40,930 nucleotides of DNA, taken from NCBI GenBank assembly GCA_021324415.1, contig JAJPJF010000293.1, forward strand, positions 1 through 40,930, written 5' to 3'. Positions within the stretch are counted from its first letter, which is position 1; each line of letters opens with the position of its first letter. Both the position numbers and the translations under genes were made by a program. This DNA is from Nostocales cyanobacterium Centralia_MAG_434. GTDB lineage: Bacteria > Cyanobacteriota > Cyanobacteriia > Cyanobacteriales > Nostocaceae. The notes beneath the pieces are model-generated. The model saw nothing but the letters and a program-made list of their open reading frames with translations, did not search any database and was not told the DNA's origin. This document shows, piece by piece, positions 1,150 to 37,724 of the stretch.

Positions 1150-2247
1150 TTACTTGTTCTCGCGTTTGTAAGACTTAACTCTGTGACGATTACACCACAT
1201 GAAAAAGCCAGTACTTAACAGTGCAGAGGGCACAAGACCAACTAGGACATATAAATATCGCACGCCAAGTCCACCATAGCTACCATTATGCACAGATAGC
1301 AGTGCATTGCTGATTCTTAAGGCTATAGGTGCTTTTAGGGCATTGTCCACCTGCAACACTTTTCCACTATATTGATCAATATAGATTTGACTACGACCAT
1401 AAACATCCATATCCTGAGGTAACTTCTTAGACACCCGAAAAACATCATTAGGCTGATGAGGCAGAACAACAAGGGTGATTTGTCCCTCTGGCAAAGCGGC
1501 GTTTGCTACCTGTAGGATCTCCTCTAACTGCAGAGGCGCTTGAGCTAGTACAGGTGTTGAAACAGGTAGGATTGTTTTAGGGGTTTGAGTTAGCCAATGA
1601 ATCATAGTTTCAAACTGGCTACTGAATACCATAGCTGACCCAGTTGAAGCAATCAGGATCAGAAATGCTGCGGATAAAAAACCTCCCACTTTGTGGAGAT
1701 CGTAAAAGAGTAAGGAAATATGAGCCTTTGTGCGAATCCAAAAGCCAAGGCGTGGCTTTCGCCATCCCGGCCAAACAGTTAACCCACTCACAACCATTAC
1801 CAAAAGCAACAACCCACAAACCCCAACGAACTGCTCACCCACCTGTTGAACCAGCAGAGAGTTGTGAATGCTATAAATGAAGCTCATGAGGGTATGCCCC
1901 CATTGCTGTGCTCCCAAGATAACTCCGCTATAGGGATTAACGAATACATCAATTAACTCATCACTGTTAGAGCTTAACCCCACCTTATAAACGCCTTCAG
2001 GAGTGCGGGGGAGAATGATGGTATTCAGCTTCATTTCAGGAAAGGTAGAGCGAACAGTATTCAACACAACTTCTGGTGAGAGGTGCTTGTGTTGAGCCAC
2101 AACTTGCATCAGTTGAGGATTGAGCAACTGATCAAGCTCCCGATAAAAGACTAAACTACTGCCTGTTAAGCCAATCACTAAAAGCACCAAACCAAGCATT
2201 AATCCAATCAAGCGATGGATAGTCAATACCGGGGTTCGTAATTTCAT
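1150..2247 (-). CDS. PepSY-associated TM domain protein (iron-regulated membrane protein, PiuB-like)
   Basis: The 365-aa protein has the four-helix PepSY_TM layout: TM1 about residues 13-34, just after the HRLIGL motif (His11); a periplasmic PepSY region; TM2 about 140-158, preceded by a conserved IHNSLL (His128); TM3 about 187-208, preceded by YDLHKVGG (His185); and a C-terminal TM after SVHNGSYGG. The intramembrane histidines are typical of this family, which is often encoded beside TonB-dependent siderophore receptors. Some members reduce siderophore-bound or haem iron at the inner membrane. It starts 34 bp after the receptor stop on the same strand, so the two are probably co-transcribed and it likely handles the imported metal complex. 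The exact reaction is inferred from family and context. Confidence 0.88.
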   Translation of the reverse strand: MKLRTPVLTIHRLIGLMLGLVLLVIGLTGSSLVFYRELDQLLNPQLMQVVAQHKHLSPEVVLNTVRSTFPEMKLNTIILPRTPEGVYKVGLSSNSDELIDVFVNPYSGVILGAQQWGHTLMSFIYSIHNSLLVQQVGEQFVGVCGLLLLVMVVSGLTVWPGWRKPRLGFWIRTKAHISLLFYDLHKVGGFLSAAFLILIASTGSAMVFSSQFETMIHWLTQTPKTILPVSTPVLAQAPLQLEEILQVANAALPEGQITLVVLPHQPNDVFRVSKKLPQDMDVYGRSQIYIDQYSGKVLQVDNALKAPIALRISNALLSVHNGSYGGLGVRYLYVLVGLVPSALLSTGFFMWCNRHRVKSYKRENK

Positions 2248-6137: not shown

Positions 6138-9100
6138 ATGGGCAAACACTTTTCCAAACAAATAATGGAATTTTCTACGTTGATAGAAATTCTCCGTTGG
6201 AGAGCGCTCCAACAGCCCGAACAGAAAGCTTATACTTTTCTTCAAGATGGAGAAGTAGAAGAGTCTCATTTGACCTATGGGAATCTTGATTGTCAAGCTA
6301 GAGCGATCGCAGCCTTACTTCAAAGCCAGGGACTCAGTGGAGAGCGTGCTTTGCTACTCTATCCACCAGGGTTAGAATACATTACCGCCTTTTTTGGATG
6401 TCTGTACGCTCAAGTTGTTGCTGTACCTGCTTATCCACCTCGATTGAACCGCTCCATAGCACGTCTTCAAGCCATTGTTGCGGATGCCCAAGCAACTGTG
6501 ATACTCACAACCACAACGCTCTTGACCCAGATAGAACGTCAATGGCCTCTAGCACCAAACCTCAAAACTATCAAATGGCTGACCACTGACAGTCCTCCTA
6601 GTGGTCTAGAAGACAGTTGGCAAGAAATTGCAGTCAATAGCAATACCTTGGCTTTTCTACAATACACATCAGGTTCTACATCAGTACCAAAGGGCGTCAT
6701 GGTTAGCCATGGCAACATAATACATAACGAAACCATCATCCAAAAAGCCATGGCGCACACCGAGAAGACTATCTTCGTGGGTTGGCTTCCTCTATTTCAT
6801 GATATGGGTCTCATTGGGAATCTGCTTCAGCCCTTGTACTTGGGTATTCCATGCATTCTCATGTCTCCAGTGGCTTTTCTGCAACGTCCCCTACGCTGGC
6901 TACAAGCAATTTCTCGTTACCAAGCAACCACCAGTGGTGGCCCAAACTTTGCTTATGATCTATGCGTAAGCAAGATTACAGAACAACAGAAGGCGGAACT
7001 CGACCTCAGGAGTTGGCAGGTGGCTTTCAACGGCTCTGAACCTATCCGTGCCCAGACTATTGAGCGATTTACTCGCACTTTCGCTGATTGTGGTTTTCGT
7101 CGTGAAGCTTTCTACCCCTGTTACGGTATGGCGGAAACAACTTTAATTGTTTCTGGTGGTTTTAAAGCAGCCCCACCAGTCTTTTTGTCTGTTGAACAAG
7201 CCGCATTGGCGCAAAATCGGGTAGTTGCTTCTTCAGAGCAGGTAGGTGTTCAGACATTGGTGGGTTGTGGCCAACCCCTGCAAGATCTACAGATTGTCAT
7301 TACCCATCCCGAGACTGCAACCCGTTGTGCCCCTGATGAGGTAGGTGAAATTTGGGTCACTGGACCCAGCGTATCTATTGGCTACTGGAACAAAATTGAG
7401 CAAACAAAGCAAACTTTTCAAGCATATCTAACAGACAGTGGAGAAGGACCATTTCTGCGCACTGGAGATTTGGGTTTTTTGTGGAAGGGCGAACTGTTCA
7501 TCACTGGTCGCCTGAAAGACCTGATCGTGATTCGGGGTCGCAACCATTATCCACAGGATATTGAAAAAACAGTGGAGCAAAGCCACTCAGCATTGCAACT
7601 TGGTGGTGTGGCGGCATTTTCAATTGAGAGTGATTTGGAGGAGAGATTAGTAGTTGCAGTAGAAGTGAAACGCAATTATCTCCGAAATTTGAATGTGGAT
7701 GAGGTCATCAGCTCTATTCGTCATGCTGTATTAGAAGAACACGAGTTACAAGTTTACGGGGTGTTGCTACTTAAAACTGGAAGCATTCCAAAAACTTCTA
7801 GTGGTAAAATCCAACGCTATGCCTGCCGAAATGGCTTCTTGAGTGAGAGTCTAGAGATTGTAGGCAGCAGTATCCTGGAAGACTCGTATACTCCAGAAGG
7901 CGAAGTGATATTAAGCACTGAAGCTTTAAGAGCATTGACACCCTGTGAGGGTCGCCTAAAGTTAGCATCTTATCTTCAAAAGCAGGTGGCTCAAGTGCTC
8001 AAAGTCGCCCCATCCCAGATAGACTCCCAGCAACCCCTCAGTGGTTTGGGTCTTGACTCTTTGATAGCTATTGAACTTCAAAACCAGATTGAAACTAACC
8101 TGGGTGTAGTCTTACCAATGGTGAGATTCCTACAGAGTTCTAGTATTGACCAACTTGCTGGTGAATTGCTTGACAAGCTTTTGACATCTGCCTTTGCCCA
8201 AGAAACGACTCTCGCTCCAGCTTTGACAGCAAAGACAGAAACTGCCCTCTCCTATGGTCAACAAGCTTTGTACTTTCTACACCAGTTGGCACCGGAAAGC
8301 CCAGCCTACAATATTGTTGGTGTAGCCCGTCTTCAAGGGGAGTTAGACATTCCAGCATTGGCTCGTGCATTTCAAAGCTTGGTAGAACGCCATCCCATGT
8401 TACGCACCACCTTCACAAACCTTTCAGGGCAACCCATTCAGCGAATTCACGAACATCGGGAAGTTTGTTTCCAGCACGAAGATGTTTCCACCTGGAGTGA
8501 GGCTAGCTTGAACGATCGCCTTGTTGCAGAAGCCCATCGTCCCTTCAATTTAGAGCAAGGTTCCCTACTACGGGTCAACTTATTCACGCGATACGCTCAG
8601 CGTCAAGTCTCCGGCTTATCGCCACAGGAACACACTCTACTGCTGGTTATGCATCACCTAATCGCCGACTTCTGGTCTGGTGCAGTGCTGATGCATGAAC
8701 TAGGAATACTTTACCAGACACACAAGGCTGGAACAAAGGCAACCCTGAGTCCGCTAGCAGTGCGCTATACCGACTATGTGCGCACTTCAGTGGCAATGCT
8801 GGCAAGTCCTACGGGTAAAAAGCTATCGGCTTACTGGCAGAAGCAACTAGCTGGGGAATTGCCAGTGTTGAATTTGCCCACTGACCGCCCTCGACCACCC
8901 ATTCAAACCTATAGAGGAGCCTCGCAGTCCTTAAAGCTGAGCGCAGATTTGACTCAAAGACTCAAGACCCTCAGTCTTGCTAATAGAGCCACTCTTTACA
9001 TGACCTTGCTAGCAGCCTTTCAAGTCCTACTCTATCGCTACACAGGTCAAGAGGATCTCCTGGTAGGTTCCCCAACCATCGGCAGAAATCAAGCTGATCT

Positions 9101-12100
9101 AGCTTGGCTGGTGGGATATTTCGTTAACCCAGTAGTTTTGCGAGCCAATCTTGCCGGAAACCCAACATTTAAAGCATTTCTTGACCAGGTGCGTGCTTGT
9201 GTGCTGGACGCCTTAGCTCACCAAGATTATCCCTTTGCACTTTTGGTCGAACAACTACAGCCGATCCGAGACCCCAGTCGATCCCCACTCTTTCAAGTGA
9301 TGTTTGTCTTGCAGAAAGCCCATCTCCTTGAAGAAGGCGTAACAGCTTTTGCCCTTGGAGAACCAGGAGTCAAAATAAAACTAGGGGAGTTAGAGCTGGA
9401 GTCTTTAAGCTTATCCAAGGGAATTGCACAGTTCGATCTTACTTTGATGATAGCTGAGGTCGATGGTGCTCTTTGTGCCTCTTGGCAATACAACACAGAT
9501 TTGTTTGATCCTACGACGATTGCGCGGATGGCAAATCATTTTCAGACTTTGCTTGAAGGTATAGTTGCTGACCCAGAGACGTTAATCTCAGATTTACCAC
9601 TCCTGACACACTTTGAACAGCAACAATTACAACAGTGGAGTGCCACTGCTGTTAATTATTATAGTGATACTTGTCTTCATCAACTATTTGAAACTCAAGT
9701 AGAGCAGACACCAGATGCAGTGGCAGTGGTGTTTGTAGACGAACAAATTACCTATCAAGAACTGAACCAACGAGCTAATCAGCTAGCCCACCATTTACAA
9801 TCTCTAGGAGTTAAGCCAGAGGCGTTGGTTGGCATTTATTTGGAGCGCTCGCTTTGCACGGTTGTGAGTCTGTTGGCGGTTCTCAAGGCAGGCGGGGCTT
9901 ATGTCCCTCTAGATCCCACCTATCCTGATGAGCGTCTAGCTTTTATGCTAGAAGATGCTCAGGTTTCGGTATTATTAACTCAACAAGAGTTGGTTGGAAG
10001 GTTACCTAAACACAAAGCACATATAGTCTGCTGGAAAAACGACAGTGAACTCCATCACCAGAGTGTGGATAACCCAGTTAGTAAAGTAACAGCCGACAAT
10101 CTGGCTTACGTGATCTACACTTCTGGCTCGACTGGTAAACCCAAGGGAGTTATGAACACCCATAGAGGGATCTGCAACCGTTTATTTTGGATGCAAGATA
10201 CCTACCAACTGACACTGCGAGATCGGGTGTTGCAGAAAACCCCCTTTAGCTTTGACGTCTCGATTTGGGAATTCTTCTGGCCACTGATGACGGGTGCGAC
10301 TCTAGTAGTAGCGCGACCAAGAGGTCATCAAGATAGCGCTTACTTAGTCAGGTTGATACAACAGCAGCAAATAACCACACTCCATTTTGTCCCCTCAATG
10401 CTGCAAGTGTTTCTAGAGGAACCGGGTGTAGAAACCTGTCACAGTCTTAGGCAAGTTATGTGTAGTGGAGAAGCGCTATCATTCCAACTGCAAGAACGCT
10501 TTTTTGCCCGTCTAAATGCAGACCTACATAATTTGTACGGACCAACCGAAGCTGCTATTGATGTCACATTCTGGGCTTGTAAGCGTCATAGCCACAAACA
10601 CATTGTCCCCATTGGTAGCCCCATCGCCAACACGCAGATTTATCTGCTAGACACTCACCAAAATCTAGTCCCCATTGGTGTGCCAGGGGAACTGCATATT
10701 GGCGGTGTTGGTCTGGCGCGGGGTTATCTCAATCAAGCTGAGCTAACATCTCTAAAATTCATTCCCAATCCCTTCCAAAGAAGCAGAGGAGCAGAGGAGC
10801 ATGGGAGCATAGGGGAGGCAGAAAATCAATTTTCTAGTTCTGAGCGTCTGTACAAAACTGGGGATTTAGCACGTTATCTACCCGATGGAAACATTGAATT
10901 TTTGGGACGAATAGACCACCAAGTCAAGCTTCGAGGCTTCCGCATTGAGCTTGCTGAGATTGAAGTGGTGCTGAGTCAACATCCGGCTGTGCAGGAGGTT
11001 GTGGTCTTAGTACGAGACTCCAACAAAAGTCAAAAGTTCCAGGACTTCACGCCGATTGCCGACGTGGAAAACCCATCCAATATTACTGGATTGCGTCGCT
11101 TACTCAAGGGAGAAATAGCAGCAGAATCTGGAAAGGAGCAATTGGTTGCCTATTGCGTCACTCGTGGTCAACCTGCGCCTACTGTGACCGAGTTGCGTCG
11201 CTTTTTGGTGAATAAACTCCCTGATTATATGATTCCAGCAGCTTTTGTCATGCTGGATGCACTGCCCTTGACACCTAATGGCAAAATAGATCGGCGATCG
11301 CTCCCAAATCCAGGTCAAACCAGACCCGATTTAGAAAAAGCTTTTGTCGCTCCTCGAACTCAGGTAGAGGAGATATTAGCACAGGTGTGGGCAGAGGTGC
11401 TGAACATTCAACAGGTGGGTATTCACGACAACTTCTTTGAATTGGGTGGAGATTCTATCCGTAGCATCCAAGTGCTTGCCAAAGCCCAGGCAAGAAATTT
11501 AAGTTTCTCGCTTGAGCAGCTTTTCCAGCATCAGACCATTGACACACTGGCACAAGCAGTGACATTGACTGAGTCTAGTTTCTCAAATGTAAAAACAGAG
11601 GCATTTAGCTTACTCTCTGACCAAGATCGCCAAAAACTACCTCAAGGTGTCGAAGATGCTTATCCTTTGGCAAGAGTCCAGGCTGGGGTAATTTTTCACA
11701 CCCAGTCCATGCCTGACTCACCCATGTACCACGACATTTTCCTTTACAATCTACAGGTTCACTTAGACACTGAAATCTTTCAAGCCTGCGTCCAGCAAGT
11801 TGTGGATCGCCACCCCATTTTGCGGACTTCATTTGATCTCACTCACTTTAGCGAACCCCTACAATTAGTTCATCAAACTGTAGTTGCTCCTTTTCAAGTC
11901 GAGGATCTGCGCGGTTTATCACCAGATGCACAACAAAAAGCGCTTGCCACTTGGATAGAAGCTGAAAAAAGACGCAATTTTGATTGGTCTTGCCCGCCAT
12001 TCATTCGCTTTTTTATTCATCGTCTGACAGAACAGTCCTTCTATCTTACCTTTAGCTGCCACACTTCTATCCTTGACGGCTGGAGTAAAGCCTGTTTGCT

Positions 12101-15100
12101 GACAGAGTTGTTACATCGTTATCATACTCTTCTCAATGGCGAAGTCATTGCAATTGAGCCAACGCCGACTATTGCATACCGAGATTTCATTGCCTTAGAG
12201 CGTTTAACGCTCAAATCAAAGGAATGCCGAGACTATTGGACTCAAAAATTAGCAGGTTGTGTCACTACAAAATTGTCCCATTACCAGACTCACCTTACTA
12301 CAGACACCCCTCAAATTGGATTTTTGGATGTCCAAATCTCTCGAGAAATTTCTGATGGACTTAAAAAACTGGCACGGAGAGCAGAAGTTCCCCTGAAAAG
12401 CGTTTTGCTGACTGCACACCTGAAAGTGATGAGTTTGCTCAGTGGAGAGATCGATGTTCTTACAGGGCTGGAGTCTAACGGTCGATTGGAAGAAGCCGAT
12501 GGTGAGAAAACTTTGGGAATTCATTTGAACACAGTTCCTTTTCGCTTGAAGTTAAAAGTTGGAACTTGGATCGAGTTAGTGCAGCAGGTTTTTGAAGCAG
12601 AGCGAGAGTTATTGCCATTTAGACGCTATCCCTACGCTGATTTGCATCAGCTGGTTGGTCGTCAGGCTCTACAACCTTTGGTTGATACTGTTTTTAACTA
12701 CACACACTTTCATGTTTATCAGCATCTTCAAGCTTTAAAAGACGTGGAAGTTTTAGGAGCTAGAGGTTTTGGTGAAACTCATTTCACTTTAAGATCTGAG
12801 TTTAATCTCAACCATGCTTCAGATTGTCTACAACTCGATTTAGAATGCAACCTAACCCAGATAGGTAATGCACAGCTAGAGACGATTGGCAGTTATTTCA
12901 CCGAGACATTAACAGCAATGTCCACACAGCCGTTGAAACATCACGAGTCTCAATGTCTTTTGCCAGAACGAGAACGGCTGACTTTACTGGAGGAGTGGAA
13001 CAATACTGCTGCCAAATACCCACAAAATTGCTGTGTTCATCAACAAATTGAGGCGATCGCAGCACAAACTCCAGATGCGATCGCCGTGGTTTTTGATCAA
13101 CATCGGCTCACCTACCAAGAATTGAACACTCGCGCCAATGCACTTGCTCACTACCTACAACGACTAGGAGTGCGTCCCAACGTTCGAGTAGCTTTGTGTG
13201 TAGAGCGTTCATTAGAGATGATTGTGGGAATACTAGGTATCTTAAAATCAGGTGGAGCCTATGTACCCTTAGATCCTACTTATCCCCAAGAGCGTCTTAC
13301 GTTTTTGCTAAAGGATGCACACGTGCCAGTCCTACTCACTCAAGCACGGCTTATCGAGAAACTCCCTCAGCATCAAACTGCTATCCTATGTCTAGACTCC
13401 GATTGGGATATTGTGGTAACAGAGAGCACAGAAAACCCTATCATCACCAGTACTCTAGAAAATTTAGCTTACCTCATCTACACCTCAGGCTCCACAGGTC
13501 AACCAAAAGGAGTGCTCATCACCCATCAAAACTTAGCCCACTCAACCAATGCGCGGATCGCTTACTACCCTGAACCCTTTACCAGTTTTTTGTTAGTTTC
13601 CTCATTCGCCTTCGATAGTTCCATAGGATGCATTTTCTGGACACTTTGTCAAGGAAAAACCCTAGTGTTGCCTAGAGAGGGTTTACAGAAAGATATTTGG
13701 CAGTTAACTCATCTCATTAACCACCATCAGGTCTCACACTGGTTGAGTATTCCTTCCCTGTATAGCGCTCTGTTGACACATATTGAATCCACTCAGTTGC
13801 TTTCTCTGCGCACCGTCATTGTTGCGGGAGAGTCCTGTACAACAGAGTTAGTAGAACGTCATTATCAGCAACTGCCACACACTTCTTTATTTAATGAATA
13901 CGGACCAACAGAAGGAACAGTATGGTGCAGTGTCTACAATTGCCAAAATCATGACTTGAAAAATCCTGTACCTATTGGTCGCCCAATTGCTAACACTCAG
14001 ATTTATTTGCTGGATTCTTACCTACAACCTGTACCAGTTGGAGTTCCTGGCGAAATTCATATTGGAGGAAAAGGTTTGGCTATAGGGTATCATAACCGTT
14101 CTGAACTCACTGCTGAAAAATTTATTCCCAATCCCTTCCACGTAGGCAGGGGAGCAGGGGAACAGGAGCGTTTGTACAAAACAGGAGATTTAGGACGTTA
14201 CCGACCGGATGGAAACATTGAGTTTTTGGGACGAATTGACTATCAGGTCAAACTGAGAGGATACCGTATTGAACTGACAGCAATTGAGGCAGTACTGCTA
14301 CAACACTCAGAGGTTCTGCAAGCTGTTGTCTCAGTTTGGGAGGAGTTGCTTAACAAACGCCTAGTTGGGTACGTAGTGCTAGAACCAGAATCTGCAACCA
14401 CAACCAATGAATTGCAAAGATTTTTAAGGCAGAACTTGCCAGAATACATGATCCCCACTGTCTGGGTCAAGCTAGATGCTTTGCCCTTGAATGCCAACGG
14501 TAAGGTAGACCGCCAAAACTTACCTGCACCTCAGCAAGTGCTTAACAGCACACAGCCAGAGTTAGAAGCCGATCCACGTACACCAGTTGAAAAGACACTT
14601 GCCACCCTCTGGACTCAAGCTCTCAGACTTGAGCGGGTAGGCATTTACGACAACTTTTTTGAGTTGGGTGGGGATTCAATTCAAAGTATTCAAATTATAG
14701 CGAAAGCAAATCAGGCAGGTCTTTCGCTCAGTACCAATCAGCTCTTTGAGCATCCAACTATTGCAGAGTTAGCAACGGTTGTTGGTCAAATTCAGCCTCG
14801 TCAACTGCAACAGGAGCCAGTAGAAGGTCCGGTAGCCTTAACCCCGATCCAACATTGGTTCTTCGAGCAAAATTTCCCGGAACCTCATTATTGGAATCAA
14901 GCAGTTCTACTTGAGGTACAACCAGATTGTGATCCCTGGTTGCTAGAGGCAGCTTTTCAACAATTGCTCATCCACCACGATGCACTACGCTTAAGATTTG
15001 CACAAACACAGGGGCACTGGCAACAAACCAATCACGGTCCTGAAGAGAAAGTGTGCTTCGCGCAATTCGATCTGTCAGATATCCCTATCTTAGAACAGGA

Positions 15101-16259: not shown

Positions 16260-16326
16260 GTAGGTTGTTGAGAATAAACGATTATTTCTTAGGGTCGGGC
16301 ATACGGCATAGATAAGATAGAGTGCT

Positions 16327-16389
16327 TCCCATGCCCCATACCCCATGCCCCATGCCCCATGCCCCATGCCCCATGCCCCATACCCTATA
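16327..16389. repeat. Nine tandem heptamers, CCCCATG/CCCCATA (STRR-type)
   Basis: Nine consecutive 7-bp units run from 16327 to 16389: TCCCATG, CCCCATA, five CCCCATG, CCCCATA and CCCTATA. They fill the 133-bp gap between the NRPS and the C-PCP gene, ending 4 bp before the likely start at 16393. They create spurious in-frame ATGs reading PMPHAPC. Heptamers of the CCCCRRT type are known short tandem repeats of heterocystous cyanobacteria. Confidence 0.9.
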
Positions 16390-16392
16390 CTT

Positions 16393-23866: not shown

Positions 23867-23896
23867 TAATAGTTAAACCCATCAAGTGAAATTCAA

Positions 23897-29800: not shown

Positions 29801-31714
29801 GTTGAGGCGACTGGCGTGAGCAGGGGGGAGACTGAAAATCAATCCTCTAATGAGCGTCTGTACAAAACTGGAGATTTAGGACGTTATCTACCGGATGGAA
29901 ACATTGAGTTTCTGGGACGAATTGACCATCAGGTGAAGATTCGCGGTTTCCGCATCGAACCTGGGGAGATTGAGGCGGTGCTAGCCCAACACCCAGAGGT
30001 GGTTCAAGGTGTGGTTATAGCTAGGGACAACAATGGCGACCAAAGCCTAGTGGGTTATGTGATTCCACAGTCTGAAAAAGCTCCTACAAGCAGTGAACTG
30101 CGCCGCTTTCTCAAAGAGAAGTTACCCGATTACATGATACCATCAGTATTCGTGGTACTAAAAGCTCTACCTTTGACGCCCAACGGCAAGGTAAACCGTC
30201 AAGCCCTACCAGCACCAGACCTGAACCTAACTAAGCGCGAAAATGTCTATGTAGAACCACGCACGCTAGTTGAAGAGTTGTTAGTAAGAATTTGGTCTCA
30301 AGTGCTTGGGATTGAGCAAGTTGGTGTTTACGATAACTTCTTTGACTTGGGTGGACATTCTTTGCTGATCACTCAGCTTGTTGTCAAGGTGCGAGAAACT
30401 TTTCAAGTTGAGTTACCCTTGCGTAGTTTATTTGAGATGCCTACAGTTGCACAATTGGCTCAGAGTATTGCGATCGCTCAAAAAACAGGAGCTTTATCCA
30501 CGACTGTTGGCGCAAAAACACCCCTGAATTTCAAGGCTGAAACTGTCCTTGACCCTACAATTAGCCCAAATACACCCTATCACCATATCACCAAGCCAGC
30601 TTGTGTTTTCTTAACTGGAGCCACAGGTTTTGTCGGAGCTTTTTTGCTGCATGAACTCCTGCGGCAAACTCACGCAGATATCTATTGTTTGGTTCGTGCG
30701 CCCAATCTCAAAGAAGGTAAGAAGAGAATTCAAACCAGCCTTGAATCTTATTTATTGTGGGATGAATCTTTCAGTTGCAGAATTATCCCAGTTGTCGGAG
30801 ATCAAACTCAGCCGCTTTTAGGGCTTTCCCAGGAAGAGTTCCAAGCCATGGCTGAGTTAGTTGACGTCGTCTATCACAATGGTGCATGGGTGCATCATAC
30901 TTCTCCCTACCCTGTACTTAAGGCAGCTAATGTTTTGGGAACCCAAGAAGTTTTGAGATTCGCAAGTCAAGTTAAAGTCAAATCTGTGCATTTCATTTCC
31001 ACCAAAAGTGTTTTTTCCGCAGTTGGTGATTCTGGAGTCCGGATTGTTCGAGAAGATGACAGTTTAGATGATGACCAATTGCCATTAGGAGGTTATTCTC
31101 AAAGCAAATGGGTTGCCGAAAAGTTAGTCACTATTGCCCGTGACCGAGGTCTCCCTGTGTGTATCTACAGAATAGGACGTGTTTCTGGGCACAGTCAAAC
31201 TGGTGTTTTTAATAGAAATGACTTCTTGTACAAACTCATTATAGGCTGTATCCAACTTGGAAGTGTGCCGGAAATAGAGATGATCGAGGACATAGCTCCT
31301 GTAGACTATATCAGCAGAGCGATCGTCTATTTGTCTAAGCAAAAGCAATCCTTAAACAAAGCATTTCATTTTGTTAATCAACAGCCTTTCAACTCCAGTT
31401 TACTGATCAACTTGCTCAACGCGTTTGGTTACCCATTGCAACAAATTTCTTATGAGCAATGGCGAAGATGTTTGCTTACAGTTGCGGAACACTCACCAGA
31501 ACATACCTTGTATCCACTGGTGTCGTTTTTCCCTCCCAGAAGTTCTGAACAAGAAATGTCTCAAGGAACACTAGAATTTGACTGTCAAAATACACTTAAT
31601 GGACTTGCAGGCACCTCTATAGTCTGTCCTCCTGTAGATGAGCAATTGCTTTCCACTTACTTGTCATATTTAACTCATCACGGTTTTCTTTTGCCTGTGC
31701 AGTCGAACGATTAA
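23897..31714 (+). CDS. NRPS with reductive release: C-A(Ser)-PCP-C-A(X)-PCP-TD
   Basis: This 2605-aa terminal synthetase starts 30 bp after the PKS. C3 (about 45-480) has HHIVADA at 178-184. A3 (about 505-1000) has pocket D-V-W-H-I-S-L-I-D, a known serine code. PCP3 uses Ser1052. C4 (about 1110-1545) has the canonical HHVVADG (1244-1250). A4 (about 1570-2090) has pocket D-S-A-L-I-A-E-V-W, almost the same as A2 of the first NRPS and not assigned. PCP4 uses Ser2155. The C terminus (about 2230-2605) is an NAD(P)H-dependent thioester reductase, with GATGFVG starting at Gly2241 and the YxxxK pair Tyr2400/Lys2404. Such domains release the chain as an aldehyde, sometimes as an alcohol. There is no thioesterase. 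A4 contains two insertions, one near 28675-28712 and one at 29747-29832. Confidence 0.96.
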   Translation: MSDLSQRLAGLSPEKLKLLAQRLNKKKGEALLQQQISPHSRESNSFPLSFAQQRLWFLDQLQPGNIAYNISQAMHLKGWLHVAALEQSFQEIVRRHEVLRTTFAMVDGELVQVISPSPNFTLPVVDLTELSTTVQKVKVQELATHEAQYPFDLAHGPLLRVTLLKLGETEHVLVFVMHHIVADAKSCGILIQELAVLYKGFSTGKPPVLPELSIQYADFAHWQRQWLQGSVLAEQLAYWKQQLAETPPVLTLPTDRSSPSVQNLAGDCISFHLSPSLSAMLKKLSQSEGVTLFITLLAAFQTLLYRYSTQDDFCVGTAINNRKTSELNSLIGCFVNTLVLRANLSGNPSFRELLSRVREVALAAYAHQDLPFEKLVEELQPERNFSQNPLFRVMFVFWNAPMPDLKLGNLSLSHLDIDRTTSRFDLTLAMAETQQGLVASFEYNTGIFDAATISRMVGHFQTLLSGVVAHPDQQLTDLPILTAAEQHQLLVEWNHTETSYPKLQCIHQLFEIQVEQTPDAVAVVFVDEQLTYRELNYQANQLAHHLQTLGVKPEVLIGICLERSVEMVIGLLGILKAGGAYVPLDPTYPKERLALMLQDTQVPVLLTQQHLVQMLPPHQAQVICLDTDWKANTDVANLQCPSNPVSKATIQNLAYVIYTSGSTGKPKGVMNTHMGLCNRLLWMQDVYHLTQTDRVLQKTPFSFDVSIWEFFWPLLHGACLVVAQPGGHQDSAYLVKLIGSQQITTIHFVPSMLQVFLEEPGLEVCTCLKHVICSGEALPWKLQKHFFTRLNAQLYNLYGPTEAAIDVTYWRCDRHSDLPIVPIGSPIANTKSYLLDSFGRSVPIGVPGELHIGGAGLARGYLNLPELTAVKFIPNPFSQEPGTHLYKTGDLARYLPDGNIEFLGRIDHQVKIRGFRIELGEIEAVLVQHQAVRETVVLAREIQPGNKQLVAYVVPNSEQTPSINQLQRFLQEQLPEYMLPAAFVILEALPLLPNGKVNRQMLPAPVAQLEPSDTFVAPCTPIEQVLAGIWAEVLGLKTVSIHSNFFDLGGHSLLATRVISQVRKIFKVDLPLRRLFEEPTVSRLAKDIERANHTGLGLKLPPIKRISRDTELPLSFAQARLWFLAQLEPNSPFYNIPSAFRLQGRLNLAALEQSLSEILRRHEVLRTTFSTVEGRPVPIILPATRLSLPIIDLCKVPESQQQTVVRQLMMTEAKQPFDLSTGPLLRVKLLWISEQEYVALFTMHHVVADGWSIGVLVREMTALYQAFCNGQPSPLSEFPIQYVDFAAWQRQSAIKEVFKAQLAYWRQHLAGVSTLLQLPTDHQRPTVATFRGDTYSFKLSQELSFGLKTLSFQKESTLFMLLLAAFKTLLYRYTGNTDIVVGTPIANRHQTEIEGLIGFFVNTLVLRTDLSDNPCFDELLERVREVALQAYTHQDLPFEQLVEEIQPQRSTSYTPLFQVMFVLQNAPMPPIELSGLTVSSLASNIGSAKFDLTLSMQETTEELLGTVEYNSDLFDKGTICRMVGHLQELLTAIVANPKQHLNELPLLTEAEQHQLLVAWNDTEAEYPSNQCIHQLIEAQVERSPDAVAVLFVDERSEASHRVDQYLTYQELNVKANQLAHHLQTLGVGPEVLVGIYLERSVEMIVGLVGILKAGGAYVPLDPTYPQERLDFILQDTQLSMLLTQERLTEKLPQHQAQVVCLDTNCSGIALQSKENPPNLPKPHNLAYVIYTSGSTGQPKGVQITHQNLVHSTYSRILYYSKPATRFLLVSPFVFDSSVAGIFWTLCQGGALMLPREKLQLELFQFIEMIPRHQISHILCLPSFYKLILEHAAPQQLDSLNTVIVAGESCSAELVKLHHQLLPHTPLFNEYGPTEGTVWSSVYNCHNHNGQTTVPIGCPIANTQIHILDSCEQLAPIGVPGELHIGGAGLARGYLNHPELTAAKFIPNPFQRGRGAGEQGSQRRAGVPPVEATGVSRGETENQSSNERLYKTGDLGRYLPDGNIEFLGRIDHQVKIRGFRIEPGEIEAVLAQHPEVVQGVVIARDNNGDQSLVGYVIPQSEKAPTSSELRRFLKEKLPDYMIPSVFVVLKALPLTPNGKVNRQALPAPDLNLTKRENVYVEPRTLVEELLVRIWSQVLGIEQVGVYDNFFDLGGHSLLITQLVVKVRETFQVELPLRSLFEMPTVAQLAQSIAIAQKTGALSTTVGAKTPLNFKAETVLDPTISPNTPYHHITKPACVFLTGATGFVGAFLLHELLRQTHADIYCLVRAPNLKEGKKRIQTSLESYLLWDESFSCRIIPVVGDQTQPLLGLSQEEFQAMAELVDVVYHNGAWVHHTSPYPVLKAANVLGTQEVLRFASQVKVKSVHFISTKSVFSAVGDSGVRIVREDDSLDDDQLPLGGYSQSKWVAEKLVTIARDRGLPVCIYRIGRVSGHSQTGVFNRNDFLYKLIIGCIQLGSVPEIEMIEDIAPVDYISRAIVYLSKQKQSLNKAFHFVNQQPFNSSLLINLLNAFGYPLQQISYEQWRRCLLTVAEHSPEHTLYPLVSFFPPRSSEQEMSQGTLEFDCQNTLNGLAGTSIVCPPVDEQLLSTYLSYLTHHGFLLPVQSND
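29747..29832 (+). repeat. In-frame compound repeat insertion in A4
   Basis: Three GCAGGGGA units are followed by a second, palindrome-like block (GCCAGCGCCGTGCGGGAG ... GGCGACTGGCG) and one more AGCAGGGG. They encode RGAGEQGSQRRAGVPPVEA and about ten further residues, where a minimal A domain has only a few. The insertion lies between IPNPF and LYKTGD, the same point as in A1 and A2, and leaves the frame open. Confidence 0.75.
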
Positions 31715-31759
31715 CTCTTAAGTATAAAAACATAACTTTCGATATCAAAAGGTACTATC

Positions 31760-32962
31760 ATGCTCTTAGGTAAAGCAACAGCAGAAGGAACACGACGTTA
31801 CAGAGAAAGACACAGAAAGAACTGTGTACGGGATCACTTTCGAGAAGTTGGCAATCTGATTACCAGTTCTATTGGACTTGGAACCTACCTTGGTGAACTT
31901 AATGAGCCAACTAACGTCCTTGTGACAGAAGCAGTGATTGAATCAGTCCGACGTGGCGTGAACTTGATTGACTCGTCAATCAACTATCGTCACCAGCATA
32001 GTGAACGGAGTGTAGGAAAAGGCATCCAACGTCTTGTGGAATTGGGAGAGGTGTCAAGGGATGAACTGATCATCTGTACAAAAGGAGGCTTCCTCCCACA
32101 TCTCAATCAAAACCAAGCAGACTGGTTTTATCAACAGTACATCGAGCCTGGCAACTCCGGAATAAACATGAGGGACTTAGTTGCAAAGGAGCACTGCATA
32201 CATCCAGAATTTCTTTGGAATCAGATCAATAGTAGCCTTACAAACCTAGGACTACAGACAATTGATGTGTACTACATCCACAACCCTGAAATTCAACTCT
32301 TTGAGGTTGCACCAGAAGTATTTTACAATCGGTTGCAAGCAGCCTTCAAAGTTATGGAAGATGTAGCAGATGCTGGGAAAATTTCTGCTTATGGTTTGGC
32401 AACTTGGAATGGCTTGCGTGTCCCTCCGGACTCAAAAGACCATTTAGATCTAGCACGAGCAAAGTCCCTTGCTCAGGAAGTAGCTGGTAACAAGAAGGAT
32501 CGATTTCAGTTTATCCAGTTTCCCTTAAACATGGCGATGCCAGAAGCACTCGTCGCACCAACTCAAAAGCTTGGAGAAGAACAAGTCCCAGTTTTGGAAG
32601 CTGCTTATCGTTTAGGGATTACCCCCATAGCTAGTAATTCTCTGTGTCAAGCACAAGTGGTAGGCAAAATCCCAGAGTATATTGTCTCTGCTTTTGGTGA
32701 TGACCTTCAGACCGACTGTCAACGCGCACTCCAGTATACTAGAAGTGCCCCAGGGCTGCTCACTGCCCTTGTAGGGATGAAAACCCCAGAACATATAGAA
32801 GAGAACTTAGCACTTACTTTTATCCCTCCTTTGAAGAGAGAGCATTTTGAACAACTTACCTATTCAATTGTTGATGTGTTGAAAATTATGCATAGAGGCA
32901 GTGATAGTTGGACTTTTGAGATAGCCAACCTATCCTATCCGTCAACCTCACTATCTGCCTAA
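31760..32962 (+). CDS. Aldo/keto reductase, probable tailoring enzyme
   Basis: The 400-aa protein has a complete AKR catalytic tetrad: Asp71 (LIDSS), Tyr76 (INYR), Lys108 (CTKGG) and His174 (YYIHNPE). The start is supported by AAAAGG about 10 nt upstream of the ATG. It begins 46 bp after the NRPS with the reductase domain, on the same strand, so it is probably part of the operon. Inference: it could reduce the peptide aldehyde released by that domain to an alcohol, or reduce a ketone elsewhere in the product. The protein is longer than a typical 320-aa AKR because of an extended N terminus and an insert after the Lys108 strand. A general metabolic role cannot be ruled out. Confidence 0.88.
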   Translation: MLLGKATAEGTRRYRERHRKNCVRDHFREVGNLITSSIGLGTYLGELNEPTNVLVTEAVIESVRRGVNLIDSSINYRHQHSERSVGKGIQRLVELGEVSRDELIICTKGGFLPHLNQNQADWFYQQYIEPGNSGINMRDLVAKEHCIHPEFLWNQINSSLTNLGLQTIDVYYIHNPEIQLFEVAPEVFYNRLQAAFKVMEDVADAGKISAYGLATWNGLRVPPDSKDHLDLARAKSLAQEVAGNKKDRFQFIQFPLNMAMPEALVAPTQKLGEEQVPVLEAAYRLGITPIASNSLCQAQVVGKIPEYIVSAFGDDLQTDCQRALQYTRSAPGLLTALVGMKTPEHIEENLALTFIPPLKREHFEQLTYSIVDVLKIMHRGSDSWTFEIANLSYPSTSLSA

Positions 32963-33005
32963 AGCAGAGCTCAAGTGTGCAACGCTAAGATAACAGCACA
33001 AAAAT

Positions 33006-34265
33006 ATGCGTATAAAAATTGTAGCATTGGCATCACCGGGTGGAATCCGAGCTTACATGGCTCTCGGTCTTGGGTTGCAACGGGCTGGTCATTCAGTACA
33101 ACTGGCTACCTTTCCTTTTTTGCAAGAGTTCGTTAGCAGCTATGGATTGGACTTTGCGGCTATAGACTGTCAGAACTTTCAAAAGACTTGTCCAATGCCT
33201 TTCGGCAACAACCCATTCCGTTTCATCCACAATTTTGGCAACTGGCTGCGACCACTCAATGAGAGTCTTTTACCTGTACTCTGGCAAGTTTGTCAAGATA
33301 CTGACGTCATTATTTTTAACCCAAATACATTCGCCTGCTACGATATCGCTGAAAAACTAGGTATCCCTTGCTACGCAGCCTGTGAACAGCCCCATCATCT
33401 AACTGATGTTTTTCCTTATTTTCATTTTCCCCAGATAAGTGTGCCAACTTTTAGGCATCAAATAGGCATTTACAATCGATTGACCTACTCCTTGTTCGAT
33501 AAACTCATCTGGCTATCTATTCAACAACCGTTCAACCAGTGGCGACAAGAAACCTTGACTTTGCCTTCTCTTCCTCCATGGTCAGGTGTTTTAACTCGAA
33601 TGCAGCAACAAAAAATACCATGTTTATACACCTGTAGTCCTTCTTTTCTCCCTAAACCTTCCAATTGGCCAAACTGGGTATATGTCACTGGTTACTGGTT
33701 TCTGGAACGCTCATCCACCTGGCAACCACCTACCAAGTTGGTAGAATTTCTGGCTGCTGGACCACCGCCAATTTATCTTGAAACCTGGCATGAGAAACTA
33801 GGAGTAGAGGCAGTCCGGAAAGTTCTATCTCAGACGGGACAACGAGCTATTGTGCGCACTGTAGCAGGGGGTCTTCGTGATGCCAAATTTTCAGAGGATG
33901 AGGTATTCACTATCAAATCAGTGCCTCACGATTGGCTATTTCCCCAAATGGCTGCAGTTGTGCATCACGGTGGTCATGGCACAACTTTGAATGGTATTCG
34001 TGCTGGTGTTCCCACAGTTGCAATACCTTACAATGGCGACCAATTTTTGTGGTCTCGTAGAGTAGCGGAATTGGGCTTAGGTCCACCACCGATTGTGCAA
34101 GAACAGCCATCAGTAAAGAGACTAGCCGCTGCTATTAGAATTGCTATCAGTGATACAACAATGCGATCGCGTACTGTAGCAATAGGCAAGCAGATTCAGG
34201 CAGAGGACGGAGTGGCGAGGGCAGTTGAAGCTTTTCATAGGCATTTGCCACCTAATTTACAGTAA
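33006..34265 (+). CDS. Family 1 (UDP-sugar type) glycosyltransferase
   Basis: The 419-aa GT-B fold protein has an N-terminal acceptor half (MRIKIVALASPGGIRAYMAL) and a C-terminal donor half. The donor signature is VPHDWLFPQMAAVVHHGG, continuing HGTTLNGIRAGVPTV, with the HHGGHGTT core from His320, as in macrolide, glycopeptide and sterol glucosyltransferases. No signal peptide is visible, so it acts in the cytoplasm. It lies 44 bp after the AKR and 44 bp before the exporter, in line with decoration of the product before export. Serine side chains, the ketide hydroxyl or a terminal alcohol would be possible acceptors. The sugar cannot be predicted. No sugar-nucleotide biosynthesis genes are nearby, so a common sugar is likely. 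Confidence 0.9.
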   Translation: MRIKIVALASPGGIRAYMALGLGLQRAGHSVQLATFPFLQEFVSSYGLDFAAIDCQNFQKTCPMPFGNNPFRFIHNFGNWLRPLNESLLPVLWQVCQDTDVIIFNPNTFACYDIAEKLGIPCYAACEQPHHLTDVFPYFHFPQISVPTFRHQIGIYNRLTYSLFDKLIWLSIQQPFNQWRQETLTLPSLPPWSGVLTRMQQQKIPCLYTCSPSFLPKPSNWPNWVYVTGYWFLERSSTWQPPTKLVEFLAAGPPPIYLETWHEKLGVEAVRKVLSQTGQRAIVRTVAGGLRDAKFSEDEVFTIKSVPHDWLFPQMAAVVHHGGHGTTLNGIRAGVPTVAIPYNGDQFLWSRRVAELGLGPPPIVQEQPSVKRLAAAIRIAISDTTMRSRTVAIGKQIQAEDGVARAVEAFHRHLPPNLQ

Positions 34266-34308
34266 CACAATGTTGTCGCCAAATCTAGCCATTAGTGTTG
34301 TATAGTCA

Positions 34309-35589
34309 ATGCAAGCATTTATCCTCATTTGGTTTGGTCAATTTGTCTCGTTGATCGGCTCTGGTCTCACCAGATTTGCGCTTGGTGTATGGGTATATCA
34401 AAATAGTGGGAAAGTTACCCAGTTCGCCTTGATTTCGTTGTTTGGCATGCTGCCGGGTATTTTAATATCACCATTGGCAGGTACGCTGGTGGATCGCTGG
34501 GATCGACGCTGGGCTATGCTTCTTGCCGACGCTGGGGCAGGACTGAGTACACTTTTGATTGCGCTGTTGCTGTTTGCCAATCAACTTCAAGTTTGGCAGA
34601 TTTACCTTGCTGTCGCGGTTAGTTCGACCTTCAGCGCTTTCCAATGGCCGGCCTATAGTGCTACAACTACGCTGCTTGTTCCCAAGCAACACCTTGGTCG
34701 CGCCAGTGGTATGGTTCAAATGGCAGATGCCGTGTCAAGGTTGATTTCACCAATACTCGCTGGGTCGCTAGTTGTAACTATTCGGCTTCAGGGTGTGATT
34801 CTCATTGACTGTGTGACTTTCTTGTTTGCGATCGCCACACTCATGCTTGTCCAATTCCCCAGACCCAGAATTACTGTAGAGGATAATGTAGGGAAAGGGT
34901 CGTTATTGCATGAAGTCATCTATGGTTGGAAATACATCACTGCGCGACCTGGGCTATTAGGATTGTTAACATTTTTTGCTATTAGCAATTGCTTTATAGG
35001 AGTTGTCACCGTGCTAGTTACACCTCTGGTACTCTCCTTTGCTTCGGCTACTGTACTTGGCATTGTGTTATCCATTGGTGGGAGCGGTATGCTGGTTGGT
35101 GGTATGGTGGTGACTGCTTGGGGTGGGACAAAGAACCGTATGAATGGCATACTCGGTTTTACACTTTTAGGTGGGCTGTGCATGGTGGTTGCTGGATTGA
35201 TGCCCTCTGTCCCAGTCTTTTTTGTTGTTACTTTTATTTACTTCTTTGGGGTGCCAATTATCAATAGCTGCGATCAGGCAATCTGGCAGAGCAAAGTCGC
35301 GCCTGCTGTACAGGGACGGGTCTTTGCTTTGCGTCGCATGCTTGCTTGGGCATCTCTACCACTTGCTTATCTGATTGCAGGACCGCTAGCCGATCAAGTC
35401 TTTGAGCCATCGCTTGCCGTAGGAGGAGTACTGGCTGGAAGTGTCGGACAAATCATCGGTGTAGGGCGAGGGCACGGCATTGCTTTATTGTTGATTGTCA
35501 TGGGAATGCTCAATATGTTGGTTTCAATTGGAGGTTATTTGTATCAACCTATACGACTGTTAGAGAAGCAACTGCCAGACGCCTACTAA
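34309..35589 (+). CDS. Major facilitator superfamily exporter
   Basis: The 426-aa hydrophobic protein has about 12 predicted membrane segments and the MFS loop signature TLVDRWDRRWAMLLAD between TM2 and TM3. It resembles the macrolide-efflux/EntS-like group (MFS_3). An in-frame TAG at 34303-34305 fixes the start at the ATG at 34309. It is the last plus-strand gene of the biosynthetic run and most likely exports the (glyco)lipopeptide across the inner membrane. EntS-type members export siderophores, which fits the metallophore idea but does not prove it. Its stop overlaps the convergent acylase gene by 4 bp (CTAA shared). Confidence 0.9.
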   Translation: MQAFILIWFGQFVSLIGSGLTRFALGVWVYQNSGKVTQFALISLFGMLPGILISPLAGTLVDRWDRRWAMLLADAGAGLSTLLIALLLFANQLQVWQIYLAVAVSSTFSAFQWPAYSATTTLLVPKQHLGRASGMVQMADAVSRLISPILAGSLVVTIRLQGVILIDCVTFLFAIATLMLVQFPRPRITVEDNVGKGSLLHEVIYGWKYITARPGLLGLLTFFAISNCFIGVVTVLVTPLVLSFASATVLGIVLSIGGSGMLVGGMVVTAWGGTKNRMNGILGFTLLGGLCMVVAGLMPSVPVFFVVTFIYFFGVPIINSCDQAIWQSKVAPAVQGRVFALRRMLAWASLPLAYLIAGPLADQVFEPSLAVGGVLAGSVGQIIGVGRGHGIALLLIVMGMLNMLVSIGGYLYQPIRLLEKQLPDAY

Positions 35590-37724
35590 AATATTTTGCG
35601 TTCCTCTAAATGAGCTTGGATTTCCTTTTGGGTTCGCCAAACTTGCCGTAACTGCTTGTGAGCAAACAACTCCAACTGATCTCCAACATGGCGTGAACCG
35701 GGTTGAGTGGCATTCCCGTAGCTAGTCAGTGCCATAGCACGTACCGGATGAGAAAACTCAATCACCGCAATATAGGAATCACCAGCAACAGATTTAAAGT
35801 ACTGATTGTTCACTGGTGCATAATCGACAACGCGAAAAACACCAAGGCTGTCCGGACCACCATTGGCAGGGAGATTCACATGACCATACTGTAGTCGGAA
35901 GACGTCACCCCATGCTATATCTAGCTTTCCATAAGCCTTTTCTACCTTGGCTGCAGCTACGGAAAGCGCCTGAGCCGCACTCAAAGGATCTGCTAAGCCG
36001 TTGGGTGTGGTGCGTGGAAATTTTTCGTTCCAAGGAGTTTTAAATACAGTCTTGAGATCTATCTGTTCAACCCAGAAATCGAAGAGTACAGCCCCGTGGC
36101 TATTTCTATCTGCTGATACATCCCAAGCTTGCAGCACATCAGCAGCTTTTCGTGCTGATTGATCCCCATACTTTCGTGCTGCGCTAATCAGGTCATCTAA
36201 GAGACGATCTGCCAGTTCGGAGCGTGTCGAGTGTTTGTACTTAACCATTTCTGTAAAAGATATGCGTTGATCTTCACTGAGCATTCTTGCAGAGCGCTGG
36301 GAGCGAAAACTCATTGGTCCACGGGGAGCCATATAGGGTGGGTAATCATCTGGGGAGAGCACACGTGGAAATGTTGTTGTCCAGGGTGGGTCATTAGTGT
36401 TCTGTAACCAACCACTAGGTGGGTCAATGACGCGGGGCAGATCCTTGTATGGATGGATTTTCGTCCATAATGTGGTTGATGTGTTGCCAGGGATTATGCC
36501 TTGCCAGTATTGAAAATCACCCTTTTGCCGAACTGGAACTTGACCATTGAACAGATGCATGATGTGCCCTTCTCGATCTGCGTACATCACGGTAAACATT
36601 GGGATCTGTAATCGTTGGAGTGCACTTTGAAATTGTCTGAGGTTTTTTGAGCGCGCCATATCCCACCACTGTTGGAGTACACCAGGTCGGTCAAGCCCCA
36701 CCACTCGCAGCGCCACGGCTTTGCCATCTTTGTGAGTGATGATAGGTCCGTGGACAGAACTTTTTACTATCAGTGATTGGTTGCGCAGTGTGCCGTTAGG
36801 TTGCTTAACTTTCAGAGAGAGGGTTTTTGTCTCAAAGGGTAATACCCTACCATCGAATAGATAACCATTGTCAACGAGTTTGAGTTCGTAAGCATCCCAG
36901 CCATCAAAGGTATTCACTGTATGAGTCCAACCTAAATGATCGTTGAATGCGATCGCTAAAACAGGAACCCCAACAAGTGCTGCGCCGTAAGCATCAATAC
37001 CTGGAGCAACAATCTGGGCTTCGTACCACAGGTACGGATCTGACCACGGTAGATGTGGATTTGCCAAGAGCATAGCATTTCCACTCTCAGAATGTGATGG
37101 AGCGATCGCCCAACCATTAGACCCTGCTTTTGGGTGCTGGTTACTGACGGAAGCAAGTTGATCTGGATTGACGACAAAAGTGAAATTGAGTACCCTCTGG
37201 AGGTGAGCCAACACATCTTCTGCCTTTACTGGCAACACGACTTCAACATCATCGGCTATGAGATCCTGATGTTCTTGAGCATAAGCATTCATTCCTGCAG
37301 CAAAAGCGTCAATATACTTGCGGAAAGTTGAACTTTGTGCTGTATACCAAGAACGTGCTCGTTCTGGAACTCCCATAGTCAGTACCCAGCGATCTGATTC
37401 TAGGTATGCTTCTCCCCAATACTGGGCAGCACGTCCCCGTGCTTGACCATAAAGACGTAGGAGCAGGTTACCGTGACTTTGCATCTGCGCCCAACCGAAA
37501 GCTTTAAATGCACTTTGTGCATCCTTGCCGTAGATATGGGGAACACCATAAGTGTCCCAGAATATTTCGGTCAATTTTGGTGTGTGGCTTAAGCTTTGAT
37601 TTGCCATCGCCAAAACCAAAATAAAAGCGAGTATCAACGGTAAGGTTTGCAACGATTGTCTTTTGTAGATTCTAAAGATAGAACGCTTGTTACGAGGGAG
37701 CACATGCACATTGCTAGTAAACAT
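35586..37724 (-). CDS. Secreted Ntn-hydrolase acylase (penicillin acylase/PvdQ/AHL acylase family)
   Basis: The 712-aa precursor has an N-terminal basic stretch and hydrophobic signal at about residues 24-46, so it is exported. The self-cleavage and nucleophile motif is KAG/SNGWAI with Ser202. Processing would give an alpha chain of about 155 aa and a beta chain of 511 aa, close to the usual sizes. Other family marks are NPHLPWSDPYLWYEAQI, WTHTVNTFDGWDAYEL and the Asn-rich C-terminal part. Members hydrolyse amides of fatty or aromatic acyl groups: PvdQ removes the acyl chain of the pyoverdine precursor, and Anabaena AiiC cleaves acyl-homoserine lactones. Beside a FAAL-started lipopeptide operon, removal of the N-terminal fatty acid after export is the most attractive role. 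Signal quenching is the alternative. It converges on the exporter gene with a 4-bp overlap. Confidence 0.92.
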   Translation of the reverse strand: MFTSNVHVLPRNKRSIFRIYKRQSLQTLPLILAFILVLAMANQSLSHTPKLTEIFWDTYGVPHIYGKDAQSAFKAFGWAQMQSHGNLLLRLYGQARGRAAQYWGEAYLESDRWVLTMGVPERARSWYTAQSSTFRKYIDAFAAGMNAYAQEHQDLIADDVEVVLPVKAEDVLAHLQRVLNFTFVVNPDQLASVSNQHPKAGSNGWAIAPSHSESGNAMLLANPHLPWSDPYLWYEAQIVAPGIDAYGAALVGVPVLAIAFNDHLGWTHTVNTFDGWDAYELKLVDNGYLFDGRVLPFETKTLSLKVKQPNGTLRNQSLIVKSSVHGPIITHKDGKAVALRVVGLDRPGVLQQWWDMARSKNLRQFQSALQRLQIPMFTVMYADREGHIMHLFNGQVPVRQKGDFQYWQGIIPGNTSTTLWTKIHPYKDLPRVIDPPSGWLQNTNDPPWTTTFPRVLSPDDYPPYMAPRGPMSFRSQRSARMLSEDQRISFTEMVKYKHSTRSELADRLLDDLISAARKYGDQSARKAADVLQAWDVSADRNSHGAVLFDFWVEQIDLKTVFKTPWNEKFPRTTPNGLADPLSAAQALSVAAAKVEKAYGKLDIAWGDVFRLQYGHVNLPANGGPDSLGVFRVVDYAPVNNQYFKSVAGDSYIAVIEFSHPVRAMALTSYGNATQPGSRHVGDQLELFAHKQLRQVWRTQKEIQAHLEERKIF

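Follow-up and report, generated by a model that had tools for sequence, protein, structure and literature searches.

In Pseudomonas, the siderophore pyoverdine is assembled as an acylated precursor, which is matured by PvdQ, an exported N-terminal nucleophile (Ntn) hydrolase with an N-terminal serine. Here we propose the same logic for a locus of Nostocales cyanobacterium Centralia_MAG_434 (assembly GCA_021324415.1, contig JAJPJF010000293.1), of which the whole contig of 40,930 bases was analyzed and is called the window below. A line of nonribosomal peptide synthetase (NRPS) and polyketide synthase (PKS) genes, ORF1 to ORF4, spans positions 6138-31714 with a fatty acyl-AMP ligase (FAAL) at its start; it is followed by genes for an aldo/keto reductase (AKR), a glycosyltransferase (GT) and an exporter of the major facilitator superfamily (MFS), and then by an oppositely oriented gene for a predicted exported acylase. 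The best explanation of the whole, which we consider fairly probable, is a metallophore (siderophore-type) pathway whose secreted acylase removes the fatty acid. By analogy, the best reading would be a pyoverdine-like logic carried out by another branch of acylases. Unlike in the pyoverdine system, the fatty acid in the window would be installed by the FAAL and an acyl carrier protein (ACP), and reductive release, an AKR and a GT are added.

Deacylation of a lipopeptide by an acylase after assembly has also been described for glidonin of Schlegelella, where deletion and assay demonstrated it for GdnD, and for telomycin, whose deacylase Tem25 is said to lie inside the telomycin cluster (PMC10587159). 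GdnD acts from 1 Mb away, unlinked to the glidonin cluster, and the lipid of glidonin is added by a starter condensation (C) domain, unlike in the window; the passages of PMC10587159 on the two compounds name neither as a metallophore system. The closest cyanobacterial comparison is cyanochelin B of Leptolyngbya NIES-3755, which shares with the window the FAAL start, the NRPS/PKS composition, release by a reductase domain, a TonB receptor and an MFS gene, and also has Fec genes. Unlike in the window, its FAAL feeds a PKS module, beta-hydroxy-aspartates serve as chelators, and the product keeps its hydrocarbon chain, according to the relevant part of PMC12628792. PMC12971057 describes cyanobacterial metallophores as understudied, and the word acylase does not occur in its main text. 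The principle of acylation followed by deacylation is already known. Its recurrence in cyanobacteria as a system that uses a different branch of acylases was not found described: titles and the opening lines of abstracts gave no account of a cyanobacterial siderophore acylase, and the 2021 cyanochelin paper may mention the gene.

The acylase and its linkage to FAAL genes

The acylase belongs to the PF01804/S45 penicillin-amidase family of Ntn-hydrolases (464 bits against a cut-off of 21.3). A preliminary description of this DNA had called it PvdQ-like, a family assignment that was rejected. The closest solved homologues were the glutaryl-7-ACA (class I cephalosporin) acylases with 667.8 bits over about 665 residues, versus 216.3 bits for PvdQ, to which the enzyme is about 27% identical, and the NCBIfam PvdQ equivalog gave a score of 261.7 against a cut-off of 950. 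The nucleophile named in that description, Ser202, was borne out, as it aligned with residue 1 of the beta chain in acylases of solved structure, and serine occupied this position in all 94 closer and all 12 more distant relatives aligned (106 of the 109 relatives found). Ser1, His23 (beta-chain numbering) and two Asn residues, which we take to be catalytic, were invariant in 94/94 relatives. The position of Arg57beta of the glutaryl acylase, presumably its glutarate-binding residue, is occupied by Ala in the window enzyme and in 75 of the 94 relatives, and the acyl pocket therefore probably differs from that of glutaryl-7-ACA acylase. A hydrophobic 12-residue stretch ahead of the mature start was seen in all 93 closer relatives long enough to judge, and the N-terminus appears to be of the type found in exported proteins. 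The tail-to-tail arrangement of this export-type enzyme with the exporter, also reported previously, was confirmed; the convergent ORFs share 4 bases. The source genome encodes a second S45 enzyme of another branch, approximately 24% identical over 416 residues.

The acylase was detected (E value of 1e-100 or better) in 140 of 388 genomes drawn from the order. Its linkage to FAAL genes was investigated in 57 genomes, which were chosen from the higher-scoring acylase carriers, not at random and with kinship ignored. FAALs were searched at limits of 1e-100 and 1e-150, and a FAAL in an ORF of at least 1000 amino acids was regarded as fused by this length criterion only. A fused FAAL was located within 80 kb of the acylase on the same contig in 42 of the 57 genomes, and any FAAL in 43, when compared to approximately 4.1 genomes expected for any FAAL under random placement. 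The FAALs near the acylase were fused in 42 cases and stand-alone in 2, while the ratio for the remaining FAALs was 36 to 62 (Fisher p = 5e-12). Among 20 acylase-negative genomes of the same family, nine had a FAAL, and 3 of the 15 FAALs found were in ORFs over 1000 amino acids. These results demonstrated that the pairing of FAAL-NRPS and acylase genes, on which the earlier proposal had hinged, is conserved far beyond chance.

Several cases weigh against a general coupling of the two. No linked fused FAAL was found in 15 of the 57 genomes, several of which have fragmented assemblies; in G240 the acylase and a fused FAAL lie far apart on one long contig, and G067 and G085 yielded no FAAL other than a stand-alone one. 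Counted per acylase copy, 42 of 66 were linked, with 37 of 48 in single-copy genomes and 5 of 18 in the nine two-copy genomes, so that second copies are mostly unlinked. The second acylases of G102, G017, G119, G014 and G316 had no FAAL on the contig within 80 kb. Independence of the acylase from NRPS genes, which the preliminary description had given as grounds for abandoning its idea, is thus found for single copies and not as a rule. Two different acylases of this clade (L084 and L087) were observed about 16 kb apart on one contig of Scytonema hyalinum WJT4-NPBG1.

The arrangement in the window was compared with orthologous and sister clusters. In an uncultured cyanobacterium (locus L083, genome G388), the order acylase-MFS-GT-AKR-reductase is the same as in the window; the MFS, GT, AKR and reductase are 81-90% identical (GT 87%) and the acylase 84%. 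On a second contig of this genome, G388:C263, counterparts of the window's TonB-dependent receptor (TBDR, 83%), PepSY protein (81%) and FAAL (81-83%) were found with the TBDR beside the FAAL. A homologue of the TonB-like gene (69%) stands there beside the PepSY and TBDR genes at the FAAL end of the cluster, and because of this position beside PepSY the gene is probably part of the system. TBDRs 53-54% identical to that of the window also lie beside sister FAALs in G303, G295 and G378. The compact sister clusters G303:C62 and G378:C17 read FAAL-C-Ser-C-X-C-X-reductase-MFS, X being the residue of a second type of adenylation (A) domain described below, with a TBDR and an MFS 72-73% identical to that of the window. 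The scan of these two clusters found no PKS, AKR, GT or nearby acylase, and both genomes hold an acylase elsewhere. These acylase-free clusters are the main result against a strict requirement for the acylase in cis.

The source genome itself provides a further point on that side. Of two TauD hydroxylase queries, one found nothing at 1e-15 and the other led to contig C275 and weakly to C484. C275 (43 kb) encodes NRPS domains adjacent to two TauD hydroxylases, and no acylase of the window type was found on it, so the acylase substrate could be the product of another line. Accordingly, the window acylase might act mainly on another lipopeptide of the cell, such as that of the C275 line, its present place being a later arrangement. 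The acylase-free sister clusters and the precedent of GdnD, acting from a distance of 1 Mb (PMC10587159), agree with this. The acylase-to-reductase gene order, kept in L083/G388 at 81-90% identity, argues against it, as does the absence of a FAAL match on C275, a short contig whose line may start elsewhere, and we regard such a role as improbable.

Metallophore-type neighbourhoods and the first bond

A total of 80 stretches around acylases was scanned, taken from the high ranks first and covering approximately 9 kb on each side, some being shortened by contig ends; eight of the acylases were below 57% identity. In the 72 neighbourhoods with acylases of at least 57% identity, we detected FAAL (19), reductase domains (24), NRPS/ketosynthase (KS) domains (38) and type II thioesterase (TEII, 17), along with TBDR (24), Fec genes (32), TauD (10), MFS (21) and PepSY (13). 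Markers of NRPS, FAAL, reductase or iron uptake were present in 65 of the 72, a number that takes in some weak Fec matches of control strength; 62 remained when C, A, KS and iron matches below 40% identity were removed. Seven had no marker (L044, L118, L142, L143, L154, L158 and L161). In four of these (L044, L154, L158 and L161) the linked FAAL is farther away, and the acylases of L142 and L143 grouped with the more distant acylases (support 87) in a tree made by a quick method from 106 rows, 96 of them different, the named and G-numbered genomes overlapping in identical pairs. The eight more distant acylases had no iron marker and one weak KS match. As controls, 13 arbitrary loci gave two weak FecE-type matches to generic ATPases (29-34%) and nothing else, and none of seven loci of the other S45 branch had markers.

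These controls bear on a role in general detoxification or in the quenching of N-acyl-homoserine lactone quorum signals, unconnected to the pathway, as performed by PF01804 enzymes of other branches. The linkage to FAAL genes is far above chance, and the marker-free loci of the other S45 branch come from the same genomes; quorum quenching as the only function is made unlikely by this linkage, and we consider the unconnected role very improbable.

The replicons of several named strains illustrate the context. A plasmid of Nostoc NIES-3756 carries the run acylase-FecCDEB-ferric reductase-MFS-TBDR-NRPS-TauD, in which the NRPS starts with FAAL-ACP-C-A. The plasmid record of Leptolyngbya boryana reads NRPS-TauD-NRPSs-TEII-acylase-TBDR, that of Gloeothece PCC 7424 shows the same kind of context, and Gloeocapsopsis dulcis a looser one. 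The immediate neighbours of the acylase are divided between biosynthesis or export and import. Within 500 bases, TEII or MFS genes were found in 25 cases: TEII preceded the acylase in the same orientation in 7 loci and was convergent with it in 4, and the corresponding numbers for MFS were 6 and 8. The import side, with Fec, PepSY or TBDR genes, accounted for 15 cases, including 5 loci with a co-oriented FecE upstream, 4 with FecC on the opposite strand, 3 with PepSY and 1 with TBDR. Because of this ratio of 25 to 15, use on the import side is a fair rival. The acylase would then serve uptake or recycling by deacylating the loaded or used metallophore in the periplasm or outside, and the secreted product would be acylated. 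The import genes close to the acylase count in its favor and against the maturation reading, and in Nostoc NIES-3756 the acylase even heads the Fec import run. The TEII and MFS loci, the place of the Leptolyngbya boryana acylase behind biosynthetic genes and the direct contact of the window acylase with the exporter speak against it; on balance we think it unlikely, though less so than the other alternatives.

The domain that follows the linked FAAL was determined in the fetched stretches containing both genes. It was a C domain in 16, a KS domain in one (L088) and out of view at the end of the stretch in six; in the L088 genome, a further fused FAAL lies at a distance of about 18 kb from the acylase. 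As a FAAL feeding a C domain is expected to yield a cuttable amide, the linked FAALs are, judged from their domain order, of the amine-acylating type. In cyanochelin B, the single contrast case, the FAAL is followed by a KS domain, and no acylase match was found on 95 of the 98 kb of its plasmid, the rest of the genome lying outside the search.

In the window, an acyl-installing enzyme, a first C domain of the amide-forming kind and the predicted exported acylase are encoded together, the gene set expected of a maturation system with pyoverdine-like logic. The NRPS/PKS line is accompanied by genes for a TBDR, a PepSY_TM protein, a TonB-like protein and the MFS exporter, the combination expected of a metallophore cluster. 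The window holds no Fec importer. It also holds no enzyme known to make a chelating group, which tells against a metallophore, and the metallophore reading of the window thus rests on receptor genes and kinship. The preliminary description had confined the system to positions 6138-37724. All the parts that it named are in place; the TBDR, PepSY_TM and TonB-like genes were left out, which alters the interpretation. As the metallophore type of these clusters had gone unnoticed there, the comparison with pyoverdine is now stronger.

Assembly line and gene content of the window

The coordinates of the features are collected in Table 1. ORF1 to ORF4, the AKR, GT and MFS genes form a co-directional run, and the TonB-like gene lies beyond the acylase.

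Table 1. Features of the window with the basis of each assignment
Feature	Position	Strand	Basis and remarks
PepSY_TM protein	1150..2247	-	Pfam
TonB-dependent receptor with plug and AMIN domain	2282..4960	-	Pfam; divergent from FAAL gene
ORF1, FAAL-ACP-C-A(Ser)-PCP-C-A(X)-PCP-E(C-like)	6138..16259	+	Pfam; starts with AMP-binding and PP-binding
ORF2, C-PCP, without A domain	16345..18126	+	Pfam
ORF3, KS-AT-MT-KR-ACP	18119..23866	+	Pfam and motifs
ORF4, C-A(Ser)-PCP-C-A(X)-PCP-reductase (NAD_binding_4) release domain	23897..31714	+	Pfam
Aldo/keto reductase (AKR), directly 3' of release domain	31760..32962	+	Pfam
GT1-type glycosyltransferase	33006..34265	+	Pfam/NCBIfam
MFS exporter	34309..35589	+	Pfam/NCBIfam
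Predicted exported Ntn-hydrolase (acylase), Ser202 nucleophile	35586..37724	-	PF01804, 464 bits; PDB match; conservation; tree
TonB-like protein (TonB_C)	38353..39732	+	Pfam

The start of ORF1 was identified as a FAAL because it is fused to an ACP and matches at 58% the FAAL region of cyanochelin B, whose cluster has been published, in agreement with the FAAL-ACP opening described earlier. The A-domain codes were DVWHMSLID and DSGLIAEVW in ORF1, and DVWHISLID and DSALIAEVW in ORF4. We read the first code of each pair as Ser, a residue that we assign by assumption; these codes closely resemble the one in the cyanochelin B module for Ser. The DS(G/A)LIAEVW codes for residue X resemble what we take to be a His code, and this assignment remains a guess. 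To validate the extraction of codes, the seven A domains of cyanochelin B were compared with its structure: in gene order they gave Cys, Phe, Gly, Asp, Ser, Asp and Gly, as we presume these codes to be read, in agreement with the structure. No Asp code was present among the four A domains of the window and no TauD among its ORFs, and none of the known chelator enzymes (beta-hydroxylase, catechol or hydroxamate) appeared among the Pfam matches of the scanned window ORFs. Judged from these codes and domains, the window lies outside the cyanochelin family, as it has no beta-hydroxy-aspartate modules. In L041, L047, L050 and L153, an A domain with the code DSALIAEVW is preceded by a TauD hydroxylase and by a C domain that matches weakly. 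These four are reductase-ended clusters, and the arrangement is compatible, as a guess, with beta-hydroxy-His, a beta-hydroxylated residue other than Asp.

All motifs sought in the KS, acyltransferase (AT), ketoreductase (KR), carrier and reductase domains were found, including TACSTS, GHSIG, HAFH and YTAEN in ORF3 and YSQSK in the reductase domain of ORF4. We take HAFH in the AT domain to mark the malonyl type. The terminal C-like domain of ORF1 is presumed from its position to be an epimerase (E). In the second C domain of ORF1 (11535-12857), the second His of the HHxxxDG motif, presumably the catalytic one, is replaced by Thr (CHTSILDG), and the six relatives of at least 65% identity have Thr, Asn or Asp at this position. 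By its sequence, the C domain that stands between the Ser module and the X module departs from the standard form in a conserved way. ORF2 consists of a C domain and a peptidyl carrier protein (PCP), which has no A domain in ORF2 for loading. Of 30 fetched AKR loci (L053-L082), 12, the window among them, had the AKR gene directly behind an NRPS reductase domain, and the tandem may form a release-and-reduce unit. Apart from the ortholog in L083, a GT gene was found in none of the 72 other acylase neighbourhoods within approximately 9 kb on each side.

Outside these genes, a 107-residue protein with GLTT repeats and a His-rich tail is encoded at 37820-38143, between the acylase and the TonB-like gene; outside copies of the window contig, it had no match among the fetched loci. 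A motif of 20-30 bases (TTCGCGCATAAA..) recurs several times within 40141-40588, in both direct and inverted orientation. The region also includes an inverted pair of 57 bases with 93% complementarity and looks like the ends of a mobile element. The adjoining ORF gave a weak CHAT match below the cut-off. An OrfB/TnpB-type IS605 protein is encoded at the contig start (3-863).

Proposed maturation and its implications

In the proposed pathway, the FAAL would activate a fatty acid, which the first C domain would attach in amide linkage to the amine of the initial Ser residue. Elongation would bring in the second residue, then a beta-hydroxy polyketide unit bearing a methyl group, then another Ser and finally the last residue. 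After reductive release, the chain would be tailored by the AKR and GT and exported by the MFS protein, and the secreted acylase would cut the fatty acyl amide in the periplasm. The tail may act as a membrane tether, a mask or self-protection during assembly, with the deacylated head as the working molecule; the preliminary description had suggested that the mature product would be a glycopeptide with a free amine. The first steps follow from established FAAL and C-domain chemistry, and the final deacylation from the linkage and the enzyme class. The observed basis is the gene content, the catalytic residues and the conserved linkage that ties the acylase to metallophore genes and to FAALs of the amide-forming kind, from which we infer the cut itself, its place and timing, and the product.

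Extended to the lineage, the same logic would describe an acylate-then-deacylate metallophore system, in which FAAL-ACP-C starters add a lipid that is later discarded and its removal falls to a dedicated clade of secreted acylases derived from the glutaryl-acylase branch, not from PvdQ. We put this forward tentatively, as a possibility that we hold to be serious and still somewhat short of probable. If true, many of the clusters currently interpreted as encoding lipopeptides would lead to lipid-free metallophores, and the N-terminus would be wrongly predicted for a large share of the products of cyanobacterial FAAL-NRPS clusters. Product searches should then target deacylated masses under metal starvation. 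The sister clusters lacking the acylase are ready controls. The system would also be an independent case of the pyoverdine strategy, and the purpose of the temporary lipid could be studied side by side in two systems that were built separately.

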